DNA of 64,000 bases from Methyloversatilis universalis EHg5 (GTDB lineage: Bacteria; Pseudomonadota; Gammaproteobacteria; Burkholderiales; Rhodocyclaceae), in contig NZ_KB900539.1 in assembly GCF_000378945.1 (NCBI RefSeq), positions 2,995,234 through 3,059,233 on the forward strand, read 5' to 3'. Shown piece by piece: positions 4,380 to 16,847 of this stretch. Every line of letters begins with the position of its first letter. Within the stretch, counting starts at the first letter, position 1. Position numbers and translations under genes: made by a program. Under the pieces are notes generated by a model. It ran no database searches, was not told the DNA's origin, and was given only the letters and a program-made list of their open reading frames with translations.

Positions 4380-5009
4380 TCAGGAGAACAATTCGATGTC
4401 GCCGGAAGCATCGTCGCGAGCAAGGCGTTCCTGATACTCGCGCTCGCGCCTGACCAGCGTATCGTTGTTCATGCGCGCCAGCCGCTTGAGCAGCACGCGC
4501 CCCGAATTCGGAAAGAAGTAAATCTTTCTTGCATGGCTGTCCAGCAGATCCTGAGCAAGAACAGGAATGCCTTCCTGAGCGAGATAATCGAGCACGAAAT
4601 CCGCATTGCGCTCACCGACATTGGCATTCGCCAGCGTAGCCATGACACGGCCGCCACCGAACACCTTTGCCTGCAAAGCAGAACGTCGGGCCCCGGACTT
4701 GATCAGTTCGTTCACCAGCAGCTCCATCGCATAGGCGCCGTAGCGCGCCGAGCGGCTCATGACGCCGGTGCCGGCATCCGGCAGCATGAAGTGATTCATG
4801 CCACCGATACCGCGCTCCGGATCGCGTATGCAGGCAGCCACGCAGGAACCGAGTACGGTGACCAGCAGCATGTCGCGGGTGGTCACGAAAAACTCGCCCG
4901 GCAGTATCTTGACCGCCTCACGTGAGAAATTGCGGTCGAAGTAGCGCTGCGCGGCCTGATGCTCGATCAGGCCGGGACCGTTGTCAGCGAGCGCCGTCAG
5001 CACGCGCAT
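4380..5009 (-). CDS. cheD: Chemoreceptor glutamine deamidase CheD
   Basis: 209 aa from the ATG at 5007-5009, with GGAAGAA about 8 bases upstream. The start lies inside the 3' end of cheR (26-base overlap), indicating translational coupling. The catalytic Cys is C56 (TVLGSCVAAC) and the His is H73 (GGMNHFMLPD). CheD deamidates glutamines in the MCP methylation helices and, in some bacteria, assists CheC. No cheC is present here. The C-terminus ends DIELFS, very similar to the EIELF end of the CheZ-like protein at 14647-15828. Confidence 0.95.
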   Translation of the reverse strand: MRVLTALADNGPGLIEHQAAQRYFDRNFSREAVKILPGEFFVTTRDMLLVTVLGSCVAACIRDPERGIGGMNHFMLPDAGTGVMSRSARYGAYAMELLVNELIKSGARRSALQAKVFGGGRVMATLANANVGERNADFVLDYLAQEGIPVLAQDLLDSHARKIYFFPNSGRVLLKRLARMNNDTLVRREREYQERLARDDASGDIELFS

Positions 5010-5892
5010 AGACGGTTCTTCCCATATTGCGGAACAGGTCCACCGCGTGCGAGAAGCTCTCGGAATGCCCGGCAAACAGCAGGCCGTCCGGGCGCAGCAG
5101 GGGCACATAGCGCTTGAGAATGCCGTACTGCGTCGGCTTGTCGAAATAGATCATCACGTTGCGGCAGAAGATGGCTTCAAGCGGGCCGCGCACCGGCCAG
5201 TTCGACTCGAGCAGGTTCACCCGCGTGAAACGGATGAGCTTCTGCAGCTCGGGGCGCACACGTACATCGCCGGAGCGGCTGCCGGTGCCGCGCAGGAAGT
5301 ACTTGCGCACCAGTTCGGGTGACAGTTTCTCGATGCGTTCCTCACCATAGACACCGGCCTGCCCCTGGGCCAGTACCTGGGTGTCGATGTCGGAGGCGAT
5401 GATTTCCACCGGCGGATTCATCGAGCCGTACAGCTCGCAGCAGGTGATGGCGATCGAGTAAGGCTCTTCGCCGGTCGAGGCCGCACTGCACCAGATGCGG
5501 GCATTCGGCTTGCCCAGCTTGGTCAGATGCTGTTTCAGGATGTCGAAGTGGTGCGCTTCCCGGAAGAAGGAGGTCAGATTGGTGGTCAGCGAATTGACGA
5601 AGGTTTCCCACTCGGTACGGTCATTGCGCTCCAGCCGGCGGATGTAGTCGGCAAAGGTCGCATCCCCGGTGGCGCGCAGTCTGCGTGCCAGCCGGCTGTA
5701 GACCATGTCGAACTTGATCGGCGACAGCGAGATGCCTGCGTACTGGTGGATCATCTTCGCGATGCGGTCGAAGTCTTCCCGCGTGAAGGCGAATTCGCGC
5801 GTGCTGCCGGCCAGCGTCTTCACCTCGGAAAGCTGACGGGTGACCTCTGCCGCGTTATGTGTCGCAATGCCTGCCCTGCTGCCTGTACTCAC
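4984..5892 (-). CDS. cheR: Chemotaxis protein methyltransferase CheR
   Basis: 302 aa from a GTG at 5890-5892 (VSTGSRAGI...). It is preferred over the longer open frame because upstream residues would be antisense to the MCP gene and because AGGGTCAGG precedes this GTG. The N-terminal helical domain (FTREDFDRIAKMIHQYAGIS) is followed by the SAM-binding core (CSAASTGEEPYSIAI; ASDIDTQVLAQ; FCRNVMIYFD). It methylates MCP glutamates. Two MCPs just upstream end in EWEEF, matching the xWxxF docking peptide known for CheR. The 3' end overlaps the cheD start. Confidence 0.95.
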   Translation of the reverse strand: MSTGSRAGIATHNAAEVTRQLSEVKTLAGSTREFAFTREDFDRIAKMIHQYAGISLSPIKFDMVYSRLARRLRATGDATFADYIRRLERNDRTEWETFVNSLTTNLTSFFREAHHFDILKQHLTKLGKPNARIWCSAASTGEEPYSIAITCCELYGSMNPPVEIIASDIDTQVLAQGQAGVYGEERIEKLSPELVRKYFLRGTGSRSGDVRVRPELQKLIRFTRVNLLESNWPVRGPLEAIFCRNVMIYFDKPTQYGILKRYVPLLRPDGLLFAGHSESFSHAVDLFRNMGRTVYARADGAR

Positions 5893-5947: not shown

Positions 5948-8782
5948 TCAGAACTCTTCCCACTCGTCCTCGGCCGCAGCCAGCGATACCGGCGCGACAC
6001 GCTTGACCTTGCCCAGCGCGCCGCCCCGCGAACGCGGCAGCACCGGCTCGCTGTTCGCTGCCTCGCGCACCACCGCACGCTCATAGCCCGACGACATGCC
6101 GCCCGACCCGTCCAGCTTGAACTGGCCCACCGCCCTCATCAGCGACCTCGCCTGCTCTTCCAGACTTTCCGCCGCCGCCGCCGCCTGTTCCACCAGCGCC
6201 GCGTTCTGCTGCGTAACCCCGTCCATCTGGCTCACCGCCTGCGTCACCTGCGCAATGCCCGATGCCTGCTCCTGGCTCGCCGAGGCAATGTCGGTCACCA
6301 GACCGGTCACCTGACGGAAGCTGTCCACCACCCGCTCCATCGTGTCGCCCGCTTCCGCGACCAGCTTCGCGCCGTCATCCACCCGCTCCACCGACGCCGC
6401 GATCAGACCCTTGATCTCCTTCGCCGCCTGCGCGCTGCGCTGTGCAAGGTTCCTCACTTCGCTCGCAACCACCGCGAAGCCCCGGCCCTGCTCACCCGCA
6501 CGCGCCGCTTCCACCGCCGCGTTCAGCGCAAGGATGTTCGTCTGGAACGCGATCGAATCGATCACCCCGATGATGTCCGCGATCTTCTTGCTCGAGTCCT
6601 GGATGTCCGACATCGTCAGCACCACCCGCTTCACCGTCTCCGCTCCGCGCATCACCGCCTCGTTGCTCTGGTGACCCAGCTGGTTCGCCTTCTGTGCGCT
6701 GTCCGCGTTCTGCTTCACCGTCGCGTTCAGCTCTTCCATCGAACTGGCGGTCTCTTCCAGCGAACTGGCCTGTTCCTCGGTACGTGCGCTCAGATCTGCA
6801 TTGCCCGCGGCAATCTCACGTGCCGCGGTATTGATGGCTTCGGTCGATTCCTTGATCCGGCCCACCACTTCACGCAGGCGGTCCACCGTGGAATTGGTGT
6901 CGTCCTTGAGCTGGGCGAAAGTGCCCTGGTACTCGCCGTCTATCTTGCGGTTCAGGTCGCCGCTGGCCATCGCGTTGAGCACCGACGCCAGATCGCCGAG
7001 GCTGGCCGCGACCTGCTCGACCAGGCCATTCAGCCCTTCCGCCAGCTGACGGAAGAAACCCTGCTTGTTCTCGACCGACAACCGACGCGTGAAATCGCCA
7101 TTGCCGGCTGCGCGCACCAGATCGGTCACTTCCTTCTCGATGGCCACTTCGTCGGTACGGTCCAGCCACTCACCGACCGAACCCAGACGCTGGCCGGTAG
7201 CATTCACGATGGGGCTGGTGGTGAGCTGATACAGCCGGCCACCGATCACGATTTCGCTCTTGACCGTGCTGTTCAGCGCCGCAAGACGGCCACGCGCCGC
7301 TTCAGGATCGTCGTAGAACACGGTGATGTCGCTGCCGACGAAGGCGTCGGCCGAGAACTGCGCGACCTTGCGCCGGATTTCCGACTCGGTGCGGCGCAGG
7401 GTTTCGAGCAGCGTCTTGTTGGCATAGAGCACCTTGCCGCTGTTGTCGGCGATGCGCACATTGGTGGTGACCGAATCAAGCGCCTCGCGGATGCGCAGAT
7501 TTTCGTCCGCCACCCTACGCTCCTCGGCCATGTCGGCACCAAGCTTGATCTTCATCGTCTTGGTGGCATCGAGAATGGCCACCATCTCGTCGCGACGGGT
7601 GGTGTCGACCTCGACGTCAAGCCGGCCTTCCGCCATGCGACGGACGATGGCCTTCACGTCGCCGATCGGCTTAAGGATGGAACGCAGCAGCAGCCAGGCA
7701 CCGACCGCCGCCAGCAGCAGCCCGACGACAAGCAGCGCCGCCATGGTCGCGAACGCGCGGCCGGACAGTTCTCGTACATGCTCGATCTCGCCGCCGGCAA
7801 CCCGGATCTGGAGATCCACGAGCTCGCCTACCTTGCCCGAGATCGGGTCGATGACCGGATACAGATCCTGCACCGTGTATGCGGTCAGTGCCGCCATGTC
7901 CTTGGCCCGCATGATCCCGGCAAGGCGATCTATCGCCGCATCGGCCGTCTTCATCAGCGGCAGGGCCTGCTCGACCAGAGTCCGTTCTTCATCGGTCATC
8001 TGGCTCGACCGGTAACGGTCCCAGTTCTTGACGATGGATTCACGTGCCTGCGCGATGTTCTTTTCGCCCTGCGCGAAATCGATATTGCCGTTGCGTACCT
8101 TGTGCGCGGTGTCGACGATGTTGACCGCATACATGTCCGACACCACCTTGAGCTGCTGGCTCGGCACCACGCGGTCGCTGTAGGTGACCTTGAGCACGGA
8201 CTCGCTGTTCTGCAGCGCCTGCATGCCGGTAGCCGCGATCCCGATCATGGCCAGACCGACGATGCCGACGATGCCGAACATGCGTGCGCGGATGCTCAGG
8301 CTGGCAATGAAGCGGGCCAGCGAGAAGCCGGTCTTCACCACCACGCCGTCGCGGATGGCCAGTCCCTTGGCGCTGCCTTCGCGGAAGGCGCGGTAGGCGC
8401 TTTCCGCCGCCGCCACCTGTTCGCGCGACGGGCGGGTGCGCACCGACATGTAGCCGGTGACCACACCGTTTTCCAGCACCGGCGTGGCATTGGCCACGAC
8501 CCAGTAGTGGTCGCCGTTCTTGCACCGGTTCTTGACCAGACCGGTCCACGGGCGCTCCGACTTCAGGCAGCGCCACATGTCCTCGAACGCTTCGCGCGGC
8601 ATGTCCGGATGCCGCACCATATTGTGCGGCTGACCGATCAGCTCGGATTCCTCGAACCCGCTGATTTCGATGAAGTCCCGGTTCACGTAGGCGATCTGAC
8701 CTTTCAGATCGGTACGCGACACGATGTTGTGTCGATCGGTGAGTTCAACTTCCCGCCCGGTCACCGGCGAATTGATGCGCAT
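5948..8782 (-). CDS. Aer-like PAS methyl-accepting chemotaxis protein (energy/redox taxis receptor)
   Basis: 944 aa. Order: N-terminal PAS domain (about 10-130) closely resembling E. coli Aer (GQPHNMVRHPDMPREAFEDM; KNGDHYWVVANATPV), which in Aer binds FAD; TM1 (about 160-186); a four-helix periplasmic region; TM2 (about 346-370); HAMP; a second PAS-like segment (NVRIADNSGKVLYANKTLLE); a second HAMP-like part (LNAMASGDLNRKIDGEYQGT); the signalling hairpin ([20 protein letters not shown]); and a C-terminal EWEEF peptide for CheR/CheB docking. The C-terminal 730 bases are nearly identical to the neighbouring MCP gene. AGGAGAGGAAAC precedes the ATG. Probably co-transcribed from cheW. Confidence 0.93.
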   Translation of the reverse strand: MRINSPVTGREVELTDRHNIVSRTDLKGQIAYVNRDFIEISGFEESELIGQPHNMVRHPDMPREAFEDMWRCLKSERPWTGLVKNRCKNGDHYWVVANATPVLENGVVTGYMSVRTRPSREQVAAAESAYRAFREGSAKGLAIRDGVVVKTGFSLARFIASLSIRARMFGIVGIVGLAMIGIAATGMQALQNSESVLKVTYSDRVVPSQQLKVVSDMYAVNIVDTAHKVRNGNIDFAQGEKNIAQARESIVKNWDRYRSSQMTDEERTLVEQALPLMKTADAAIDRLAGIMRAKDMAALTAYTVQDLYPVIDPISGKVGELVDLQIRVAGGEIEHVRELSGRAFATMAALLVVGLLLAAVGAWLLLRSILKPIGDVKAIVRRMAEGRLDVEVDTTRRDEMVAILDATKTMKIKLGADMAEERRVADENLRIREALDSVTTNVRIADNSGKVLYANKTLLETLRRTESEIRRKVAQFSADAFVGSDITVFYDDPEAARGRLAALNSTVKSEIVIGGRLYQLTTSPIVNATGQRLGSVGEWLDRTDEVAIEKEVTDLVRAAGNGDFTRRLSVENKQGFFRQLAEGLNGLVEQVAASLGDLASVLNAMASGDLNRKIDGEYQGTFAQLKDDTNSTVDRLREVVGRIKESTEAINTAAREIAAGNADLSARTEEQASSLEETASSMEELNATVKQNADSAQKANQLGHQSNEAVMRGAETVKRVVLTMSDIQDSSKKIADIIGVIDSIAFQTNILALNAAVEAARAGEQGRGFAVVASEVRNLAQRSAQAAKEIKGLIAASVERVDDGAKLVAEAGDTMERVVDSFRQVTGLVTDIASASQEQASGIAQVTQAVSQMDGVTQQNAALVEQAAAAAESLEEQARSLMRAVGQFKLDGSGGMSSGYERAVVREAANSEPVLPRSRGGALGKVKRVAPVSLAAAEDEWEEF

Positions 8783-8836: not shown

Positions 8837-11233
8837 TCAGAACTCTTCCCACTCTTCTTCGGCCAAGGCCGCTGCTGCGCCCGGCACGACACGCTTGACC
8901 TTGCCCAGCGCGCCGCCCCGCGAACGCGGCAGCACCGGCTCGCTGTTCGCCGCCTCGCGCACCACCGCACGCTCATAGCCCGACGACATGCCGCCCGACC
9001 CGTCCAGCTTGAACTGGCCCACCGCCCTCATCAGCGACCTCGCCTGCTCTTCCAGACTTTCCGCCGCCGCCGCCGCCTGTTCCACCAGCGCCGCGTTCTG
9101 CTGCGTAACCCCGTCCATCTGGCTCACCGCCTGCGTCACCTGCGCAATGCCCGATGCCTGCTCCTGGCTCGCCGAGGCAATGTCGGTCACCAGACCGGTC
9201 ACCTGACGGAAGCTGTCCACCACCCGCTCCATCGTGTCGCCCGCTTCCGCGACCAGCTTCGCGCCGTCATCCACCCGCTCCACCGACGCCGCGATCAGAC
9301 CCTTGATCTCCTTCGCCGCCTGCGCGCTGCGCTGTGCAAGGTTCCTCACTTCGCTCGCAACCACCGCGAAGCCCCGGCCCTGCTCACCCGCACGCGCCGC
9401 TTCCACCGCCGCGTTCAGCGCAAGGATGTTCGTCTGGAACGCGATCGAATCGATCACCCCGATGATGTCCGCGATCTTCTTGCTCGAGTCCTGGATGTCC
9501 GACATCGTCAGCACCACCCGCTTCACCGTCTCCGCTCCGCGCATCACCGCCTCGTTGCTCTGGTGACCCAGCTGGTTCGCCTTCTGTGCGCTGTCCGCGT
9601 TCTGCTTCACCGTCGCATTCAGCTCTTCCATCGAACTGGCGGTTTCCTGCAGCGAACTGGCCTGCTCTTCGGTACGCGAACTGAGGTCGCTGTTGCCGGC
9701 CGAGATTTCGCGGGCCGCCACGTTGATGGCTTCGGTCGATTCCTTGATCCGGCCCACCACTTCGCGCAGGCGGTCCACCGTGGAGTTGGTGTCGTCCTTG
9801 AGCTGGGCGAAGGTGCCCTGGTACTCGCCGTCGATCTTGCGGTTCAGGTCGCCGCTGGCCATCGCGTTGAGCACCGACGCCAGATCGCCGAGGCTGCCCG
9901 ACACCTGTTCCACCAGGTCATTCAGCCCTTCCGCCAGCTGGCGGAAGAAACCCTGCTTGTTCTCGACCGACAGTCGACGCGTGAAATCACCGGCACCGGC
10001 CGCGGTGACCAGGCCGGTTACCTCCTGCTCGATGGCCACCTCGTCGGTACGGTCTTTCCATTCGCCCACTGTGCCGACACGCTCGCCGGCGTCATTCACG
10101 ATGGGGGTCAGCGACAGTTCGAACGCATGGTCGCCGATGGCCAGTTCGCTGCGCTGTATCGGGCCGTCCGACCAGCTGCGGCGCACGAACTGCGGATTGG
10201 TGCAGAGCGCATTCACATTGCTGCCGATGAAACGGTCAAGCGAGAAGTTCGGAGCGCCCGTCCGTATTTCGCCTTCCACCCGTCCCAGCGTGCGCATCAT
10301 GGCGCGGTTCGCGTACAGCACATTGCCGCTGTTGTCGGCAATACGCACATTGGTGGTGACGCAGTCGAGCGCGCTGCGGGCGCGCAGATTTTCCTCGGCC
10401 ACCACGCGATCGCGTTCCGCACGTGTCTTCAGATCGCCCCGCATCTTGTCGAGCAGTCGCATGAGCTGCCCGACCTCGTCCTGCACGCCAGCGTCGATGG
10501 CACGATCGAACATGCCGGTCGAAATGGCTTCCGCATGCTGACCGGCCAGGCGCAGGCGGCTGGCGATGCTGCGCCCCAGATTGAGGCCGATGAAGCCGAT
10601 TACGGCGGTGATCGCCAGCGCGATCATCGCCACGAAGCCGACTTCCTTCAGGATGAGTGCATTCACGTCATCCACATAGATGCCCGAACCGACCACCCAG
10701 CCCCAGGGCTCGAACTGCCTGACATAGGACACCTTGGGCACCGGTGCATCGGCACCCGGGCGCGGCCACTTGTAGTCGACAAAGCCCGCACCTTCGCTCT
10801 TGGCCACCCGCACGAACTCGACGAACAGCGCCTTGCCGTCCGGGTCCCGGGTACCGCTGAGATCTTTCCCTTCCAGTTCGGGCTTGGTCGGATGCATGAC
10901 CATGCGCGGGCCGAAATCGTTGATCCAGAAATAGTCCTGGCCGTTGTAGCGCAGCGTGCGCAGGGTTTCCATCGCCTGCCTGCGCGCCTCATCCTCGCTC
11001 AACTCTCCTGACCGGGCGCGCTTGTGAAAGGCATCCACCACGCCCCAGGCGGACTCCACTGCAAAGCGGGCGGCGCTCTTGCGGTCTTCCAGCATGTTGG
11101 AACGCATGCCGAACAGCAGGATGGTGGCCAGCAGGACGATACCGACCATCGAGGCTGCCACGATGACCAGCAGCCGCTGCTGCACGGTCAGACCGCGCGG
11201 GGACGCGATATTCGACGAAGTGATTGAAGTCAT
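8837..11233 (-). CDS. Methyl-accepting chemotaxis protein with sCache_2 ligand domain
   Basis: 798 aa. TM1 (about 19-45) is followed by a periplasmic single Cache domain (about 46-200) with the typical NGQDYFWINDFGPRMVMHP and WGWVVGSGIYVDDV segments. TM2 (about 207-230), HAMP, a PAS-like segment (NVRIADNSGNVLYANRAMMR), a second HAMP-like part, the signalling hairpin and a terminal EWEEF peptide follow. sCache_2 domains often bind small organic acids; the ligand here is unknown. The gene starts 16 bases after cheW, so it belongs to the cheW operon. Its 3' part is nearly identical to the adjacent Aer-like gene. Confidence 0.93.
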   Translation of the reverse strand: MTSITSSNIASPRGLTVQQRLLVIVAASMVGIVLLATILLFGMRSNMLEDRKSAARFAVESAWGVVDAFHKRARSGELSEDEARRQAMETLRTLRYNGQDYFWINDFGPRMVMHPTKPELEGKDLSGTRDPDGKALFVEFVRVAKSEGAGFVDYKWPRPGADAPVPKVSYVRQFEPWGWVVGSGIYVDDVNALILKEVGFVAMIALAITAVIGFIGLNLGRSIASRLRLAGQHAEAISTGMFDRAIDAGVQDEVGQLMRLLDKMRGDLKTRAERDRVVAEENLRARSALDCVTTNVRIADNSGNVLYANRAMMRTLGRVEGEIRTGAPNFSLDRFIGSNVNALCTNPQFVRRSWSDGPIQRSELAIGDHAFELSLTPIVNDAGERVGTVGEWKDRTDEVAIEQEVTGLVTAAGAGDFTRRLSVENKQGFFRQLAEGLNDLVEQVSGSLGDLASVLNAMASGDLNRKIDGEYQGTFAQLKDDTNSTVDRLREVVGRIKESTEAINVAAREISAGNSDLSSRTEEQASSLQETASSMEELNATVKQNADSAQKANQLGHQSNEAVMRGAETVKRVVLTMSDIQDSSKKIADIIGVIDSIAFQTNILALNAAVEAARAGEQGRGFAVVASEVRNLAQRSAQAAKEIKGLIAASVERVDDGAKLVAEAGDTMERVVDSFRQVTGLVTDIASASQEQASGIAQVTQAVSQMDGVTQQNAALVEQAAAAAESLEEQARSLMRAVGQFKLDGSGGMSSGYERAVVREAANSEPVLPRSRGGALGKVKRVVPGAAAALAEEEWEEF

Positions 11234-11249: not shown

Positions 11250-11759
11250 TCAGTGCACCGGGTCGTCGACCAACGCCATGTCGGGCGACAGCATGAGTTT
11301 CTCGATATCGACGACGATGAGCATGCGTGCGTCAATCGAACCGAGGCCGTGGATGTAGCGGGTATCGAGCGCGGACGAAAAATCCGGTGCAGGCAGGATC
11401 TGGGCCGACCCGAGCGCCAGCACGTCGGACACCGAATCGACCACCATGCCGACCACGCGCCCGCCCACATTGAGGATGATGGTGACGGTGAAGGGCGTGT
11501 ATTCGACGACGCCCACACCGAACTTGATGCGCAGATCGACGATGGGAACGATGGTGCCGCGCAGGTTGATCACGCCCTTGATGAAGGGCGGCGCATGAGC
11601 GATGCCGGTCACCGCGTCATAGCCGCGGATTTCCTGCACCTTGAGGATATCGATCGCGTACTCCTCCTCACCCAGCGTGAAGGTGAGGTACTCCTGGGCA
11701 TAGCCGCCCTCTGCCGCCCCGTCGGGCCGGTGAGTCGCCACCTGCGCCGCATGAACCAT
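11250..11759 (-). CDS. cheW: Chemotaxis adaptor protein CheW
   Basis: 169 aa from the ATG at 11757-11759 preceded by GAGGGAG. A single CheW domain is recognisable from [34 protein letters not shown] and [15 protein letters not shown]. It bridges MCP signalling tips to CheA. It follows cheA after a 186-base gap that carries its own sigma-28-type promoter (11791-11818) and leads into the two large MCP genes. Confidence 0.95.
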
Positions 11760-11790
11760 TGTGAGCTCCCTCGCTTCCGATACCACGGAA

Positions 11791-11945: not shown

Positions 11946-14237
11946 TCAGGCCGCCGCGGCAAAAGTGCCGCGGGCCGACGCGACCAGCGCCGGCACATCG
12001 AGGATGAGGCCGACGTGACCGTCGCCCATGATGGTGGCGCCGGAAATGCCCACCACCTTGCGGTAGTTGGCCTCCAGGCTCTTGATCACGACCTGGTGCT
12101 GACCGACCAGTTCGTCAACGAACAGCGCAATCTTGTCGCCATCGGACTCCAGCACCACCAGGATGCCGCGTTCAAGATCGCAGGTACCGTCGCGCAGGCC
12201 CAGCGCATCTTTCAGCGTCAGGATGTTCAGATACTCGTTGCGCACCTGCACCAGCCGCGGCTGGCCAGCCACGCTCTTGATCATCGCTGAGGTCGGCTGC
12301 AGCGACTCGACCACGTAGTTCAGCGGCACGATATAGGTTTCCGCCCCGACCGCGACCGACATGCCGTCCAGAATGGCCAGGGTCAGCGGCAGGCGCACCG
12401 TCATGCGGGTGCCGACGCCGGTCATCGATTCGATGTCCACCCGGCCGCCCATGGCGGTGATGTTCTTTTTCACCACGTCCATGCCCACGCCGCGGCCGGA
12501 CACTTCGGTGATCTGGTCTGCGGTGGAAAAGCCGGCTTCGAAAATGAGCGCCCACACGTCGGAATCGCTCATCGCGTCGCTGACCGCCAGACCGCGCTCG
12601 CGCGCCTTCGACAGGATGCGCTCGCGATTCAGTCCGGCGCCGTCGTCGCCCACCTCGATCACGATGTTGCCGCTCTGATGCGAGGCCTTCAGCGTAATCG
12701 TGCCTTCGCGCGGCTTGCCGCGTGCCTCACGCACATCAGGCGTTTCAATGCCGTGATCAAGACTGTTGCGGACCAGATGGGTCAGCGGATCGGCGATGCG
12801 CTCGATCAGCCCCTTGTCCAGTTCGGTCGATTCACCGGTGGTCACCAGCCTGACCTGCTTGCCCAGCTTCTGCGACAGGTCGCGCACCACGCGCGGGAAG
12901 CGCGAGAACACGGTGGACATCGGCAGCATGCGGATGGACATGACCGATTCCTGCAGGTCGCGCGTATTGCGCTCCAGCTGCTGCACGCCATTCATCAGCC
13001 GCTCGAACTCGACCGGATTCAGTTTCGATGCAGCCGAGGCAAGCATGGCCTGGGTGATCACCAGTTCGCCGACCAGATTGATGATCTGGTCCACCTTGTC
13101 CACACCGACACGGATCGAGGTATCACCGCCACTGCCGGCCTTCGCGGCACGCGCCGCAACAGCCTTGGGCGCCTCGACCGGCTTTGCAGCGGCAGCGGGT
13201 GCCGGCTCCGCCGGCACCACATTGACCGGCGCCTGCACCGGCATGATCTCCGCGTGCGACACCGGCAGCGGCTCGAAGAAACCGTAGCTGCCGTCGGTCG
13301 TCGCACTGGCCTGAAGCGCCGGCGCGAGATCGGGCACACCCGGCGCATGGTCGAAGAAGCCGAAACTGTCGTCTTCCGTCGCCTGTGCGGGCGGCACCGG
13401 CGCGACCGGATCGGTGAAGAAACCGTAACTGCCATCGGCCACCGATTCTGCAGCGGCATCGGCTGCGAAAAGCCCCCAAGCTCCGTCCGCCGGCTCACCG
13501 GCCGTCGCCGGCGCAGCATCCTCAGCGAACAGACCCCAAGCAGCGTCATCCGCAGCGGCCGGTACGGCCTCATCGCCCTCGGCATAGCTGCCCGGATAGG
13601 CGATGAACTCCACGATGTCACGCACAGCCGCCGTGTCGACTGCACCACCGAGCACGCACTGCAAGCGGCCGGCCGCGTCCATCGATACATCGACCACCGT
13701 GGCGCCCAGCGTCTCCAGCTCGGCGCTCATGTTCTCGATCACGCCTGCCGCGTCGGCACAGGCCGGCGGCAGTGCAAAACTGAAACGGAAGGACTCCGGC
13801 AATGCGCGCTCAGGCAGCGGCTGCGCCTGGGCATCCGCCGCAACGGCATCGTTGCCGTACAGGCGCTGCAGCGCGGCACACACCTCGGCCACGCGCGCCA
13901 TGTCGGCGGTGCCCTCACCACGATGTGCGGCCACCAGATCGCGCAGCAGGTCACCCGCTTCCAGCGAGGCATCGACCATGGCGGTGGTCATCACCACCTC
14001 GTGCTTGCGCACGAGGTCGAGCAGGGTTTCCAGTTCGTGGGTGACCTGGGCAAGATCCTGAAAGCCGAAGGTGCCGGCACTGCCCTTGATCGAGTGGGCG
14101 GCGCGGAAGATGGCATTCATCTCCTCGTCATCGATGCTGTCCAGATCGATGTCGAGCAGCATCTGCTCCATATTGGCCAGATGTTCCGCGGCTTCCTCGA
14201 AGAACACCTGATAGAACTGGCTCATGTCCACGGTCAT
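11946..14237 (-). CDS. cheA: Chemotaxis sensor histidine kinase CheA
   Basis: 763 aa. P1 phosphotransfer domain with H48 (AIFRAAHSIKGSAGTFGF). A long acidic/Ala-rich region (about 130-370) contains five spaced aromatic motifs: WGLF (234, 254), YGFF (271, 318) and FGFF (292). P3 dimerisation, then the P4 kinase domain with N box (VRNSLDHGIETP), G1 (VGDDGAGLNRERI) and G2 (SGRGVGMDVVKKNI). A C-terminal P5 CheW-like domain follows (AETYIVPLNYVVESLQ). It autophosphorylates under MCP-CheW control and passes phosphate to CheY and CheB. GGGAGA precedes the ATG. It lies between cheY and cheW on the same strand. Confidence 0.96.
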   Translation of the reverse strand: MTVDMSQFYQVFFEEAAEHLANMEQMLLDIDLDSIDDEEMNAIFRAAHSIKGSAGTFGFQDLAQVTHELETLLDLVRKHEVVMTTAMVDASLEAGDLLRDLVAAHRGEGTADMARVAEVCAALQRLYGNDAVAADAQAQPLPERALPESFRFSFALPPACADAAGVIENMSAELETLGATVVDVSMDAAGRLQCVLGGAVDTAAVRDIVEFIAYPGSYAEGDEAVPAAADDAAWGLFAEDAAPATAGEPADGAWGLFAADAAAESVADGSYGFFTDPVAPVPPAQATEDDSFGFFDHAPGVPDLAPALQASATTDGSYGFFEPLPVSHAEIMPVQAPVNVVPAEPAPAAAAKPVEAPKAVAARAAKAGSGGDTSIRVGVDKVDQIINLVGELVITQAMLASAASKLNPVEFERLMNGVQQLERNTRDLQESVMSIRMLPMSTVFSRFPRVVRDLSQKLGKQVRLVTTGESTELDKGLIERIADPLTHLVRNSLDHGIETPDVREARGKPREGTITLKASHQSGNIVIEVGDDGAGLNRERILSKARERGLAVSDAMSDSDVWALIFEAGFSTADQITEVSGRGVGMDVVKKNITAMGGRVDIESMTGVGTRMTVRLPLTLAILDGMSVAVGAETYIVPLNYVVESLQPTSAMIKSVAGQPRLVQVRNEYLNILTLKDALGLRDGTCDLERGILVVLESDGDKIALFVDELVGQHQVVIKSLEANYRKVVGISGATIMGDGHVGLILDVPALVASARGTFAAAA

Positions 14238-14268: not shown

Positions 14269-14634
14269 TCAGCCGATGACCTTCTTCACCACCTCGACCA
14301 GCTTCTGCGGGTCGAAGGGTTTGACCAGCCAGCCGGTCGCGCCGGCAGCGCGGCCCTGTGCCTTCATCGCGTCGGACGACTCGGTGGTGAGCATCAGGAT
14401 GGGCGTGGTCTTGTACTGCGCCATCGCGCGCAGATTGCGGATCAGCGTGAGGCCGTCCATGCGCGGCATGTTCTGGTCGGTCAGCACCAGATTGACCGAC
14501 TTGGATTTGGCCTTGTCCAGCCCATCCTGGCCGTCCACCGCCTCGATCACCTCGTAGCCCGAGCTTTTCAGCGTGAATGCCACCATCTGACGGATCGACG
14601 CGGAATCGTCGATCGCAAGCACGGTCTTTGCCAT
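14269..14634 (-). CDS. cheY: Chemotaxis response regulator CheY
   Basis: 121 aa, a single receiver domain. The acidic pair is D9/D10, phospho-acceptor D53 (LVLTDQNMPRMDG), T83/T84 and K105 (WLVKPFDP). Phospho-CheY binds the flagellar switch. AAGGAG precedes the ATG and directly follows the stop codon of the CheZ-like gene (12-base gap), suggesting coupled translation of the regulator and its presumed phosphatase. Confidence 0.95.
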   Translation of the reverse strand: MAKTVLAIDDSASIRQMVAFTLKSSGYEVIEAVDGQDGLDKAKSKSVNLVLTDQNMPRMDGLTLIRNLRAMAQYKTTPILMLTTESSDAMKAQGRAAGATGWLVKPFDPQKLVEVVKKVIG

Positions 14635-14646
14635 GGTCCAGCTCCT

Positions 14647-15828
14647 TCAGAACAGTTCTATTTCACCTTCCTGGTAAGCCTGCTGGGCCACCGGGTTGGT
14701 GCTATCTACGACAGTCAGTTGCGCCAGCGCGTCGCCGACACGCCGGGTCAGTTCAGGCGACGCCTGCCCCTGTGCGGCCGCCTGGCTCAGCGCACGCACG
14801 GTGATCATGACGCCGTCGATCGAATCGATGCGCTTCTGTACATGACCGAGCAGCTGCGAGGTCATGTCCTGGAACTGCAGCGAGGTGACTGCATTGGCCA
14901 CCGCCACATCCACCCGCTCGACCGAGGCGCCCAGTTCGACGATGGACTGCTGGCGCCGCTGGTGCAGCATCTCCAGTCCGCGCACGACGGTCTCGACCCG
15001 CGTCTTCGATTCAAGTGCGAAAGTCATGTCCTGGCCGGCCATTTTCGCCAGCGCCTCTTCGGTATGGCGCACATTGACCTGCACGCGATCGACCAGGGTG
15101 ACGATCTGCTGGCTGAATTCATTGGTGCGCGAGGACAGGTCGCGCACCTCGTCGGCCACCACGGCAAAGCCGCGGCCGGCTTCGCCAGCGCGGGCCGCCT
15201 CGATCGCGGCATTCAGCGCAAGCAGATTGGTCTGTTTGGAAATTCCGCCGATCTCGCTCAGCAGCGCGCGCACCCGTTCGGTCTCGCGGGCAATACCTTC
15301 GGTCAGTTCGACCAGTTCCATGCCCAGCTTGCTGTTGTGGACCACGCTATCGACCACGCGCTGCATGGTGCCCGACGTTTCCTCGACGAAGGTCTCGAAA
15401 TCGAACTGCTCGCTGCCGTCGCCACCGGTGAGCGCCAGAGCGGTTTCGCGCTGACTGGTGGTTTCGCCGTGCATCTTGTGAAAACTCAGGGTCAGCCCCT
15501 CGATCGCCTCGCGCAGAAGCTGCTGAACCCGCCTCAGTTCCTCGTTCATGTGGTCGCACTGTGCATGCACCGAGTCAGAGGAACCGGCAACCAGCTGATG
15601 CGAGCCATCCGGTTCAGGTGCCTGGACATCGACCTCGCCAGCGTTGCGCTTGCCCGTCCGTACGCACAGCAGCAGCGCCGCGCTCCATACAAGGGCGCAG
15701 ACAAGACCGGCTGCCAGCAAGGGCCACAGCGCACCGGGCGCCAACCCGGCAATAACCCCGACGCTCAGGACGGACCCGGTCCAGGCGACGATCAGGGCGA
15801 GCGTTCTATCTTTCATGGCAACAGGCAT
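14647..15828 (-). CDS. Membrane MCP-like protein with CheZ-type phosphatase motif
   Basis: 393 aa (an alternative start at Met5, 15816, is possible). Two adjacent hydrophobic helices (about 9-30 and 34-56) have no periplasmic domain. A coiled-coil MCP signalling core follows ([36 protein letters not shown]), then [20 protein letters not shown] at 315-334. That segment matches the CheZ active helix (QDFQDLTGQ in E. coli) and keeps the DxxxQ pair as D321 and Q325. A linker and the end EIELF follow, where CheZ carries its CheY-binding tail. Position next to cheY is the same as cheZ in enterics. Seen: the motifs; inferred: CheY-P phosphatase activity at the receptor array. No separate cheZ is present in the window. 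Confidence 0.8.
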
Positions 15829-15899: not shown

Positions 15900-16847
15900 T
15901 CATTGCCTGGCGCTGGCGCCGACGGCAGCCGCAACATCCTCTGCATTGACCGACCGGCCATCGGACAGCATGGCCTGTTCGGTTTCCCGGTTCAGCACGA
16001 CGATGCTGATCCGGCGGTTGATCGGGTTGTACGGATCGTCCTTGTCAAAAGGCACGATGGACGCCATGCCCACCACGCGCAGCACCTTGTCCGGATCCAT
16101 GCCGCCGTAGATCAGTTCGCGACGCGAGGCATTGGCGCGGTTGGCGGACAGCTCCCAGTTCGAGAAACCGCCCAGCCCGCCAGCGAACGGTGTCGCGTCG
16201 GTATGGCCGGACAGGAAGACGCGGTTGTCCACCTGGTTCAGGATGACCCCGATCTCGCGCAGAATCTTCTGCGTATAGGGCTGCAACCGGTCGCTGGCCG
16301 AGGTGAACATCGGACGGTTCTGTTCATCGACGATCTGGATGCGCAGGCCCTCGGCGGTCACGTCCAGCATGAGCTGATTGCGGAAAGGTCGCAGATCCGG
16401 ATTGGCTTCGATGCGCGCTTCGATCTGGCTCTTCAGTTCGACCAGCTTGGCCCGCTCCTGCCGCTGCTGCTCGCGCTTGGCCTCCTCGGCCTTCTGGTCC
16501 TCGCTGCTGGCGCTCAGATTGATCGAACGCTGCTTCGTCTCGACCGAACCGTACTTGACCTGGCCGGTCTGACGGGTCAGATCGCGGCCACCACCCTGGA
16601 TCACGCTGGAGCTGTCGCCCGAACCCGAGCCGCCCTGCTGGGCCACCTTGAGCGGGTTCTCGAAGAACTCCGCGATACCCTGCAGATCGCCCTGGGCGGT
16701 CGAGCCGAGCAGCCACATCAGCAGGAAGAAGGCCATCATCGCGGTCACGAAGTCGGCGTAGGCGATCTTCCACGCACCGCCGTGCGCGCCGCCGCCGCCC
16801 TTCTTGATCTTCTTGACGATGATTGGCTGCTGGGTATCGTCGGACAT
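15900..16847 (-). CDS. motB: Flagellar motor stator protein MotB
   Basis: 315 aa. A basic N-terminus rich in Lys and Gly leads to a single TM helix with the proton-carrying D32 (AYADFVTAMMAFFLLMWLL). A Gln/Glu-rich linker and a C-terminal OmpA-like peptidoglycan-binding domain follow (VFLSGHTDATPF; NWELSANRANASRRELI; NRRISIVVL). With MotA it forms the proton-driven stator. It lies 50 bases downstream of motA in the same operon. Confidence 0.96.
   Translation of the reverse strand: MSDDTQQPIIVKKIKKGGGGAHGGAWKIAYADFVTAMMAFFLLMWLLGSTAQGDLQGIAEFFENPLKVAQQGGSGSGDSSSVIQGGGRDLTRQTGQVKYGSVETKQRSINLSASSEDQKAEEAKREQQRQERAKLVELKSQIEARIEANPDLRPFRNQLMLDVTAEGLRIQIVDEQNRPMFTSASDRLQPYTQKILREIGVILNQVDNRVFLSGHTDATPFAGGLGGFSNWELSANRANASRRELIYGGMDPDKVLRVVGMASIVPFDKDDPYNPINRRISIVVLNRETEQAMLSDGRSVNAEDVAAAVGASARQ

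Follow-up and report, generated by a model that had tools for sequence, protein, structure and literature searches.

A CheZ-like site in the receptor-like protein McpZ of Methyloversatilis universalis, most likely that of a dedicated phosphatase for an F7-type CheY

The window analysed here is a stretch of 64,000 nucleotides from the genome of Methyloversatilis universalis EHg5, and it contains a chemotaxis cluster in which flhD, flhC, motA, motB, the gene under study, cheY1, cheA, cheW, MCP genes, cheR, cheD and cheB follow one another on the same strand. The cluster was assigned to the F7 class from its gene order, as in PMC7184735, and not from a class model. The gene between motB and cheY1 encodes an McpA/CttP-like protein, for which the working label McpZ is used. 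The features referred to below are:

15900..16847, minus strand: motB
14647..15828, minus strand: McpA/CttP-like gene, McpZ, 393 aa
15655..15822, minus strand: paired hydrophobic N-terminal helices of McpZ, residues 3-58 (model, hydropathy and reading)
15439..15576, minus strand: N-terminal helix of the proposed phosphatase hairpin, about residues 85-130 (alignment, model and hub-less counterpart)
14908..15321, minus strand: MCP signalling hub, residues 170-307 (PF00015, 92.3 bits)
14851..14880, minus strand: LQFxDxxxQ-type motif, residues 317-326 (alignments and profile work; exposure by a rough heptad estimate)
14866-14868, minus strand: D321
14854-14856, minus strand: Q325
14650..14667, minus strand: C-terminal peptide GEIELF, residues 388-393, a tail type common to CheD
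14269..14634, minus strand: cheY1, F7-type CheY, the proposed substrate
11946..14237, minus strand: cheA of the F7 cluster
11250..11786, minus strand: cheW, named from ORF reading alone
4380..5108, minus strand: cheD, ending in SGDIELFS, the same tail type as McpZ

The original prediction had described an open reading frame at 14647-15828 beside a cheY gene, coding for an MCP core without a ligand domain and carrying D321 and Q325. ORF reading and Pfam agree with this description. The MCPsignal hub was the only family above the cut-off in McpZ, no ligand-binding domain was found by Pfam, and cheY1 lies directly downstream after a gap of 12 nt, with motB upstream. The predicted model of McpZ (mean pLDDT 78, pTM 0.42) has helices at residues 3-28 and 34-58 followed by long helices, and its last segment is of low confidence. 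The membrane nature of the two N-terminal helices is taken from hydropathy and reading. On the helix of residues 85-130, A108, L112, F116 and Q126 are invariant in a 29-row alignment, and a counterpart of this helix, with the pattern ..LLxxAxxxLxxxF.., is found in the hub-less homologues described below. Elsewhere in the cluster, two tandem MCP genes (5948-8782 and 8837-11233, minus strand) encode proteins that both end in WEEF and have near-identical signalling halves; an ungapped comparison found them to agree at 373 of about 395 positions.

The cluster continues, mostly beyond the window, with MCP genes, two cheV-like genes, cheY2, cheZ and a second cheA. The additional feature is:

L002:5303-6127 (about -4697 to -3873 in window numbering), minus strand: canonical cheZ ORF, 274 aa

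This gene was found by a search of the genome for cheZ, a check that the original prediction had proposed, as a PF04344 match of 261 bits (G000:C1:2990539-2991132), and it is the sole match to that family above the cut-off in the genome. It lies about 18.5 kb downstream of the McpZ gene in the same cluster, just past the window edge, adjoins cheY2, and its product carries AQDFQDLTGQ and the tail VDDLLESLGF. The claim that no separate cheZ exists was therefore not borne out; the impression had arisen because the edge of the window cuts the cluster before cheZ. The related claim, that the McpZ gene occupies the cheZ position, is inexact: the gene precedes cheY1 whereas cheZ follows cheY2. A canonical cheZ elsewhere in the genome, together with a lack of phosphatase activity or CheY binding, had been named as grounds against the prediction, and the first half of this is what the genome contains. 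We thus rejected McpZ as a substitute for a missing cheZ in this genome. To the left of the window, the two CheV-like genes precede cheY2, and the second cheA (L002 3287-5233, minus strand), which resembles a retained F6-type CheA, comes directly after cheZ.

Of 102 hub proteins lacking the tail pattern, 67 had a D...Q pair after the hub, and by itself such a pair says nothing. The longer pattern F.D...Q was found in 59 of 59 hub proteins with a GDIELF-type tail and in 10 of the 102 without, all from fetched loci, a non-random sample. Eight of these ten end in V/IELF, just outside the tail pattern, which leaves 2 of 94. In 30 orthologous loci from the same taxonomic family, D321 was kept in all and Q325 in 29, the last six residues read G-[DEG]-[IV]-[ED]-L-F in 29 (the gap is in L006), and a cheY-type ORF followed the McpZ orthologue within 85 nt in 28 (exceptions L006 and L030). 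Only Q318, F319, D321, Q325 and F393 are invariant across a 42-row alignment of beta- and gammaproteobacterial sequences, from which L006 was left out. The hub arginine and the Asp are 108 residues apart in 74 of 75 proteins, with a distance of 110 in the remaining one. Searched as an exact DNA pattern, QFQDxxxQ has a single occurrence in the genome, at McpZ. By a rough heptad estimate, Q318, D321, M322, Q325 and H329 would lie on the exposed side of the helix, which is indicative only, since the hydrophobic direction drifts along the helix. Judged from these alignments, the DxxxQ segment of McpZ is a genuine conserved feature, and the motif originally noticed at D321/Q325 stands as a specific LQFxDxxxQ patch.

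In a sample of 150 genomes of the same family, 54 had a match to McpZ of at least 180 bits, and 48 of these also had a strong CheZ. The other six are all drafts, three with a weak PF04344 match only (G077, G126 and G138) and three with none (G006, G065 and G090). G126 was set aside as an example lacking cheZ, since its contig is not readable beyond the first part of the cluster. Frames of about 200-240 aa that match only the motif part of the CheZ model (positions 106-140, E about 1e-6) were seen in G129, G083, G138, G101 and G008; they possibly belong to another CheZ-like family (compare CtCNB_4786, below).

By eye, the local sequence FQDMTSQLL of McpZ resembles FQDLTGQVI of CheZ, in which D143 and Q147 are the catalytic pair. 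When profiles were compared with CheZ, the McpA-like end scored 43% and the hub-less set alone 11%, both with the Asp and Gln in register, and ordinary MCP ends scored 2.4%, away from the motif. The match of the McpA-like end is weak, suggestive rather than proof. The C-terminal profile picked up three genuine CheZ genes (E 1e-4 to 1e-3), and PF04344 picked up four McpA-like places (E 2e-5 to 7e-4). Each of these E-values refers to a single genome, and with 299 genomes searched a match around 1e-3 comes close to what chance would give. PF04344 gave no match to McpZ at E≤1 in Pfam, and CheZ was not among the top 50 Foldseek matches of either of two monomer models. In a PDB profile search, which designed coiled coils led, CheZ (1kmi) appeared at E 5.8 with one profile and was not among the matches listed with the hub-less profile. 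The likeness of McpZ to CheZ may reflect homology or convergence.

The same C-terminal profile was searched across the phylum and matched 110 of 299 genomes at E≤1e-3, 76 of them at E≤1e-13. PF04344 had no match over the cut-off in 52 of these 76. Both counts came from comparing tables by reading; many of the genomes are drafts, some may have stretches withheld, and PF04344 may overlook distant CheZ proteins. In 34 proteins of 322-370 aa from those lineages, the MCP tip is lost or degenerate while LQFEDxxxQ and the tail are kept, and a strong hydrophobic segment is lacking (top 19-residue mean 1.73, compared with 2.49 in McpZ). The phylum-level proteins were chosen with the motif as a pattern, which passed 27 of 29 loci (L149-L177) and 20 of 20 (L247-L266); it missed no true case, since the two that did not pass (L153 and L169) are the hub-less genes L273 and L274. 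In L201, L203 and L211, a soluble McpA-like gene is followed by a small STAS (anti-anti-sigma)-looking gene. Next comes a gene whose 564-570 aa product has a receiver-like match, and after it cheB and a CheR-like gene.

Shorter homologues were found within the order. In eight other genomes, the gene directly before the CheY1 homologue encodes just 148-191 aa in all eight loci fetched, consisting of one helix, then a helix with [LM]QFxD[ML]x[ST]Q, and then the tail. The next gene after cheY1 is cheA in seven of the eight, and motA-motB precede the hub-less gene in L274. Five of these hub-less homologues had no Pfam family above the cut-off. A search of the order gave matches in 119 of 250 genomes. 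The motif and an LF-terminated tail are present in each of the best 30 loci, of which 23 are hub-less (seven of them genes already in the eight-genome set) and 7 carry a hub; a CheY1 homologue flanks the gene in 29. Their ORFs were likewise located by the motif, with none of the 30 failing, and in L282 and L287 the ORF as read extends too far in the 5' direction. Hub-less homologues are mostly 148-237 aa long, and by a simple hydropathy window nearly all are without a hydrophobic segment. The hub-less profile matched the McpA-like end at 99.3% (E 7e-21), and by this comparison the two are homologous. The 112-residue end is too short for a tree to give the number of hub losses. Since the hub is dispensable and the hub-less homologues keep motif and tail, the conserved function would sit in the hairpin and tail and not in the receptor part.

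The original prediction had also taken the end peptide for the CheY-binding tail of CheZ. This did not hold up, because the 25 CheZ tails compared read VDDLLxxLGF whereas McpZ ends in GEIELF, and we rejected a CheZ-type CheY-binding peptide in favor of a CheD-like tail. The tail pattern was looked for in 1426 ORFs (100 aa or longer) of selected loci, of which the window and L002 overlap, and it fell in McpA-like or CheD-like proteins and in one unrelated frame (L200). Many CheD proteins (window 4380-5108; L212-L241) end in [DEN][IV]ELF or nearly so, and where the genome has no McpZ orthologue, 5 of the 11 CheD loci examined still encode an IELF tail on CheD. The same tail type on McpA-like and CheD proteins implies a shared docking partner.

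With regard to the substrate, the adjacent F7-type CheY1 is the likely partner of McpZ and not CheY2, because CheY2 has its own CheZ beside it and CheY1 is the usual neighbor of McpZ. In the first sample, a CheY1 of at least 80% identity was present in 11 of 11 genomes with an McpZ orthologue and in 0 of 15 without. Among 74 of the 96 other sample genomes, which have no orthologue above 180 bits, 15 CheY1-like loci were found. In 11 of them the gene immediately ahead of cheY1 is motB, in 3 it is a family member that is divergent or hub-less, and 1 could not be assigned. In 5 of the 11 motB-preceded loci CheY1 is 81-88% identical to that of the window. CheY1 thus does not need the McpZ gene, and strict co-occurrence of the two is weakened by the 11 of 15 loci that keep cheY1 after motB. 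A change of CheY1 N59 to His as a mark of McpZ loss was first seen in two genomes, and was dropped when it held in just 3 of the 11 loci.

In one congener (G070), the McpZ orthologue keeps the hub and the Asp but lacks Q325, the QFQ residues and the tail; cheY1, cheA and cheW are missing from the 20 kb around the gene. The best CheY1-like protein of this genome, at 51% identity, is part of a second McpA-like pair. G070 has therefore lost the motif (save the Asp), the tail and the CheY1 orthologue together. A second McpA-like/cheY pair is also seen in two congeners (L208 5118-6695, minus strand; L209 5045-6643, plus strand), where the tails end in VFF and the pair has its own cheA.

We consider McpZ to be a CheZ-type phosphatase, or a phosphatase-like CheY partner, for the F7-type CheY1, anchored by its hub and without a working receptor function, with a probability of about 0.6. 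For McpZ in this species we infer the following arrangement. The MCP hub would hold the protein at the membrane and probably also anchor it in the receptor array. On dimerization, the helices around residues 85-130 and 300-350, which lie where the MCP hairpin is closest to the membrane, would pack into a small four-helix bundle. The outer face of this bundle would carry D321 and Q325, which would reach into the active site of CheY1 and speed the hydrolysis of its phosphoryl-aspartate, as D143 and Q147 of CheZ do, and the GEIELF peptide would dock to the partner shared with CheD. The proposal of a phosphatase built into the receptor array is thus plausible, given the conserved DxxxQ and the attached MCP hub, although not as a stand-in for a missing cheZ. 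Compared with that proposal, the new points are that CheY1 rather than CheY2 is the likely substrate and that the motif unit also occurs free of the hub.

An unlikely alternative is that the conserved unit tethers or scaffolds CheY1-P, or CheY1 as a phosphate sink, at the array without catalysis, with the Asp and Gln serving for binding. The usual neighborhood of CheY1 would suit such a role. Residue 92 of CheY1 is Asp in 58 of 66 sequences, unlike the Lys of CheY2, the CheZ partner, where K92 is the contact of CheZ D143. The Comamonas cheY1, whose locus number adjoins that of cheA, also bears on this, as passages of PMC6391922 describe its product as losing its phosphate quickly by itself and as a possible phosphate sink. 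Residue 92 and this fast turnover also count against the phosphatase reading. However, the invariant pair is the acid/amide pair of CheZ in a CheZ-like local sequence, and a mere scaffold would not need an Asp and a Gln conserved above nearly all other positions.

It is more doubtful still that McpZ is a true chemoreceptor (as CttP is for chloroethylenes) with a regulatory C-terminus, its tail being a divergent CheR/CheB tether. The published names and assignments favor this, as given in parts of PMC9864684, and the hub tip is strongly conserved. Sections of a V. cholerae review (PMC11940527) put Mlp44 in System III, within the section on CheR methylation, and propose an E-W/V-E-X-F end as a possible CheR3 site. 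In Shewanella, according to passages of PMC9855816, McpA clusters with the chemotaxis protein CheA3, and its overproduction, like that of three other MCPs, raises swimming; that deletion of mcpA left swimming unaffected, and the review's placing of Mlp44, count against the phosphatase reading. Against a receptor, there is no ligand domain, and the strict methylation consensus was found in only 3 of 67 family hub proteins compared with 47 of 94 ordinary hub MCPs, so that its absence is also common among the latter; McpZ has no strict site and one relaxed site at 146. The motif and tail are kept in hub-less homologues, and the McpZ tail has no aromatic second residue. According to the parts of Ortega 2020 consulted, the tail valine keeps all four CheRs of P. 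aeruginosa from interacting. That DxxxQ arose by chance or is a purely structural trait of the MCP helix is very improbable, despite the frequency of a bare D...Q, since LQFxDxxxQ is near-invariant in a fixed register across beta- and gammaproteobacteria and persists without the hub.

Beyond this genome, we would give even odds to the broader reading that the McpA/CttP-like "chemoreceptors" of Proteobacteria are CheZ-type phosphatases dedicated to F7 CheYs and brought to the array by the MCP hub onto which they are grafted, that several lineages lack the hub and membrane anchor, so that the operon slot is filled by a small CheZ-like protein, and that such proteins account for CheY-P turnover in many genomes without a recognised CheZ. 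If they are phosphatases, some annotated chemoreceptors are signal terminators. In the open-licence papers searched, largely passages, no McpA-like protein was found to be called a phosphatase.

McpZ can be compared with several known systems. The McpA/CttP-like receptors of F7 systems, PA0180 of P. aeruginosa, VCA1088/Mlp44 of V. cholerae and SO_2117 of S. oneidensis, share with McpZ a membrane part and MCP hub, the lack of a ligand domain, an F7 cheY-cheA cluster and a conserved C-terminus without the aromatic residue of the CheR pentapeptide. This assignment was made through same-position Pseudomonas and Vibrio loci (L042, L043, L048 and L054) and not through PA0180 and the other named proteins, and the relatives in Pseudomonas, Vibrio, Alteromonas and Stenotrophomonas, selected by motif and tail after 30 of 80 loci had been read, correspond to McpA/CttP-like proteins. 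The consulted parts of Ortega 2020 have the mcpA-like gene lost at stage 3 and call the role of its C-terminus unclear, whereas McpZ persists, flanked by motB and the F7 cheY, in a beta cluster that is stage-4-like. CheZ (PF04344), like McpZ, has FQDxxxQ on a helix with the Asp and Gln in register by profile comparison, but McpZ differs in having no PF04344 match, another tail, an attached MCP hub and a different cheY partner, and a true CheZ coexists in its genome. CtCNB_4786 of Comamonas appears in passages of PMC6600141 as an extra protein with low CheZ identity and a part in signal quenching, cited there from unpublished data; it is probably another gene, because its locus number is far from that of cheY1 (CtCNB1_0474). 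The CheT protein of Sinorhizobium and Agrobacterium, as described in parts of PMC12654446, is also a DxxxQ protein that acts on one of two CheYs and is without significant homology to known chemotaxis proteins; by that description it is set apart from McpZ, being complexed with CheR and presented there with no mention of an MCP hub.
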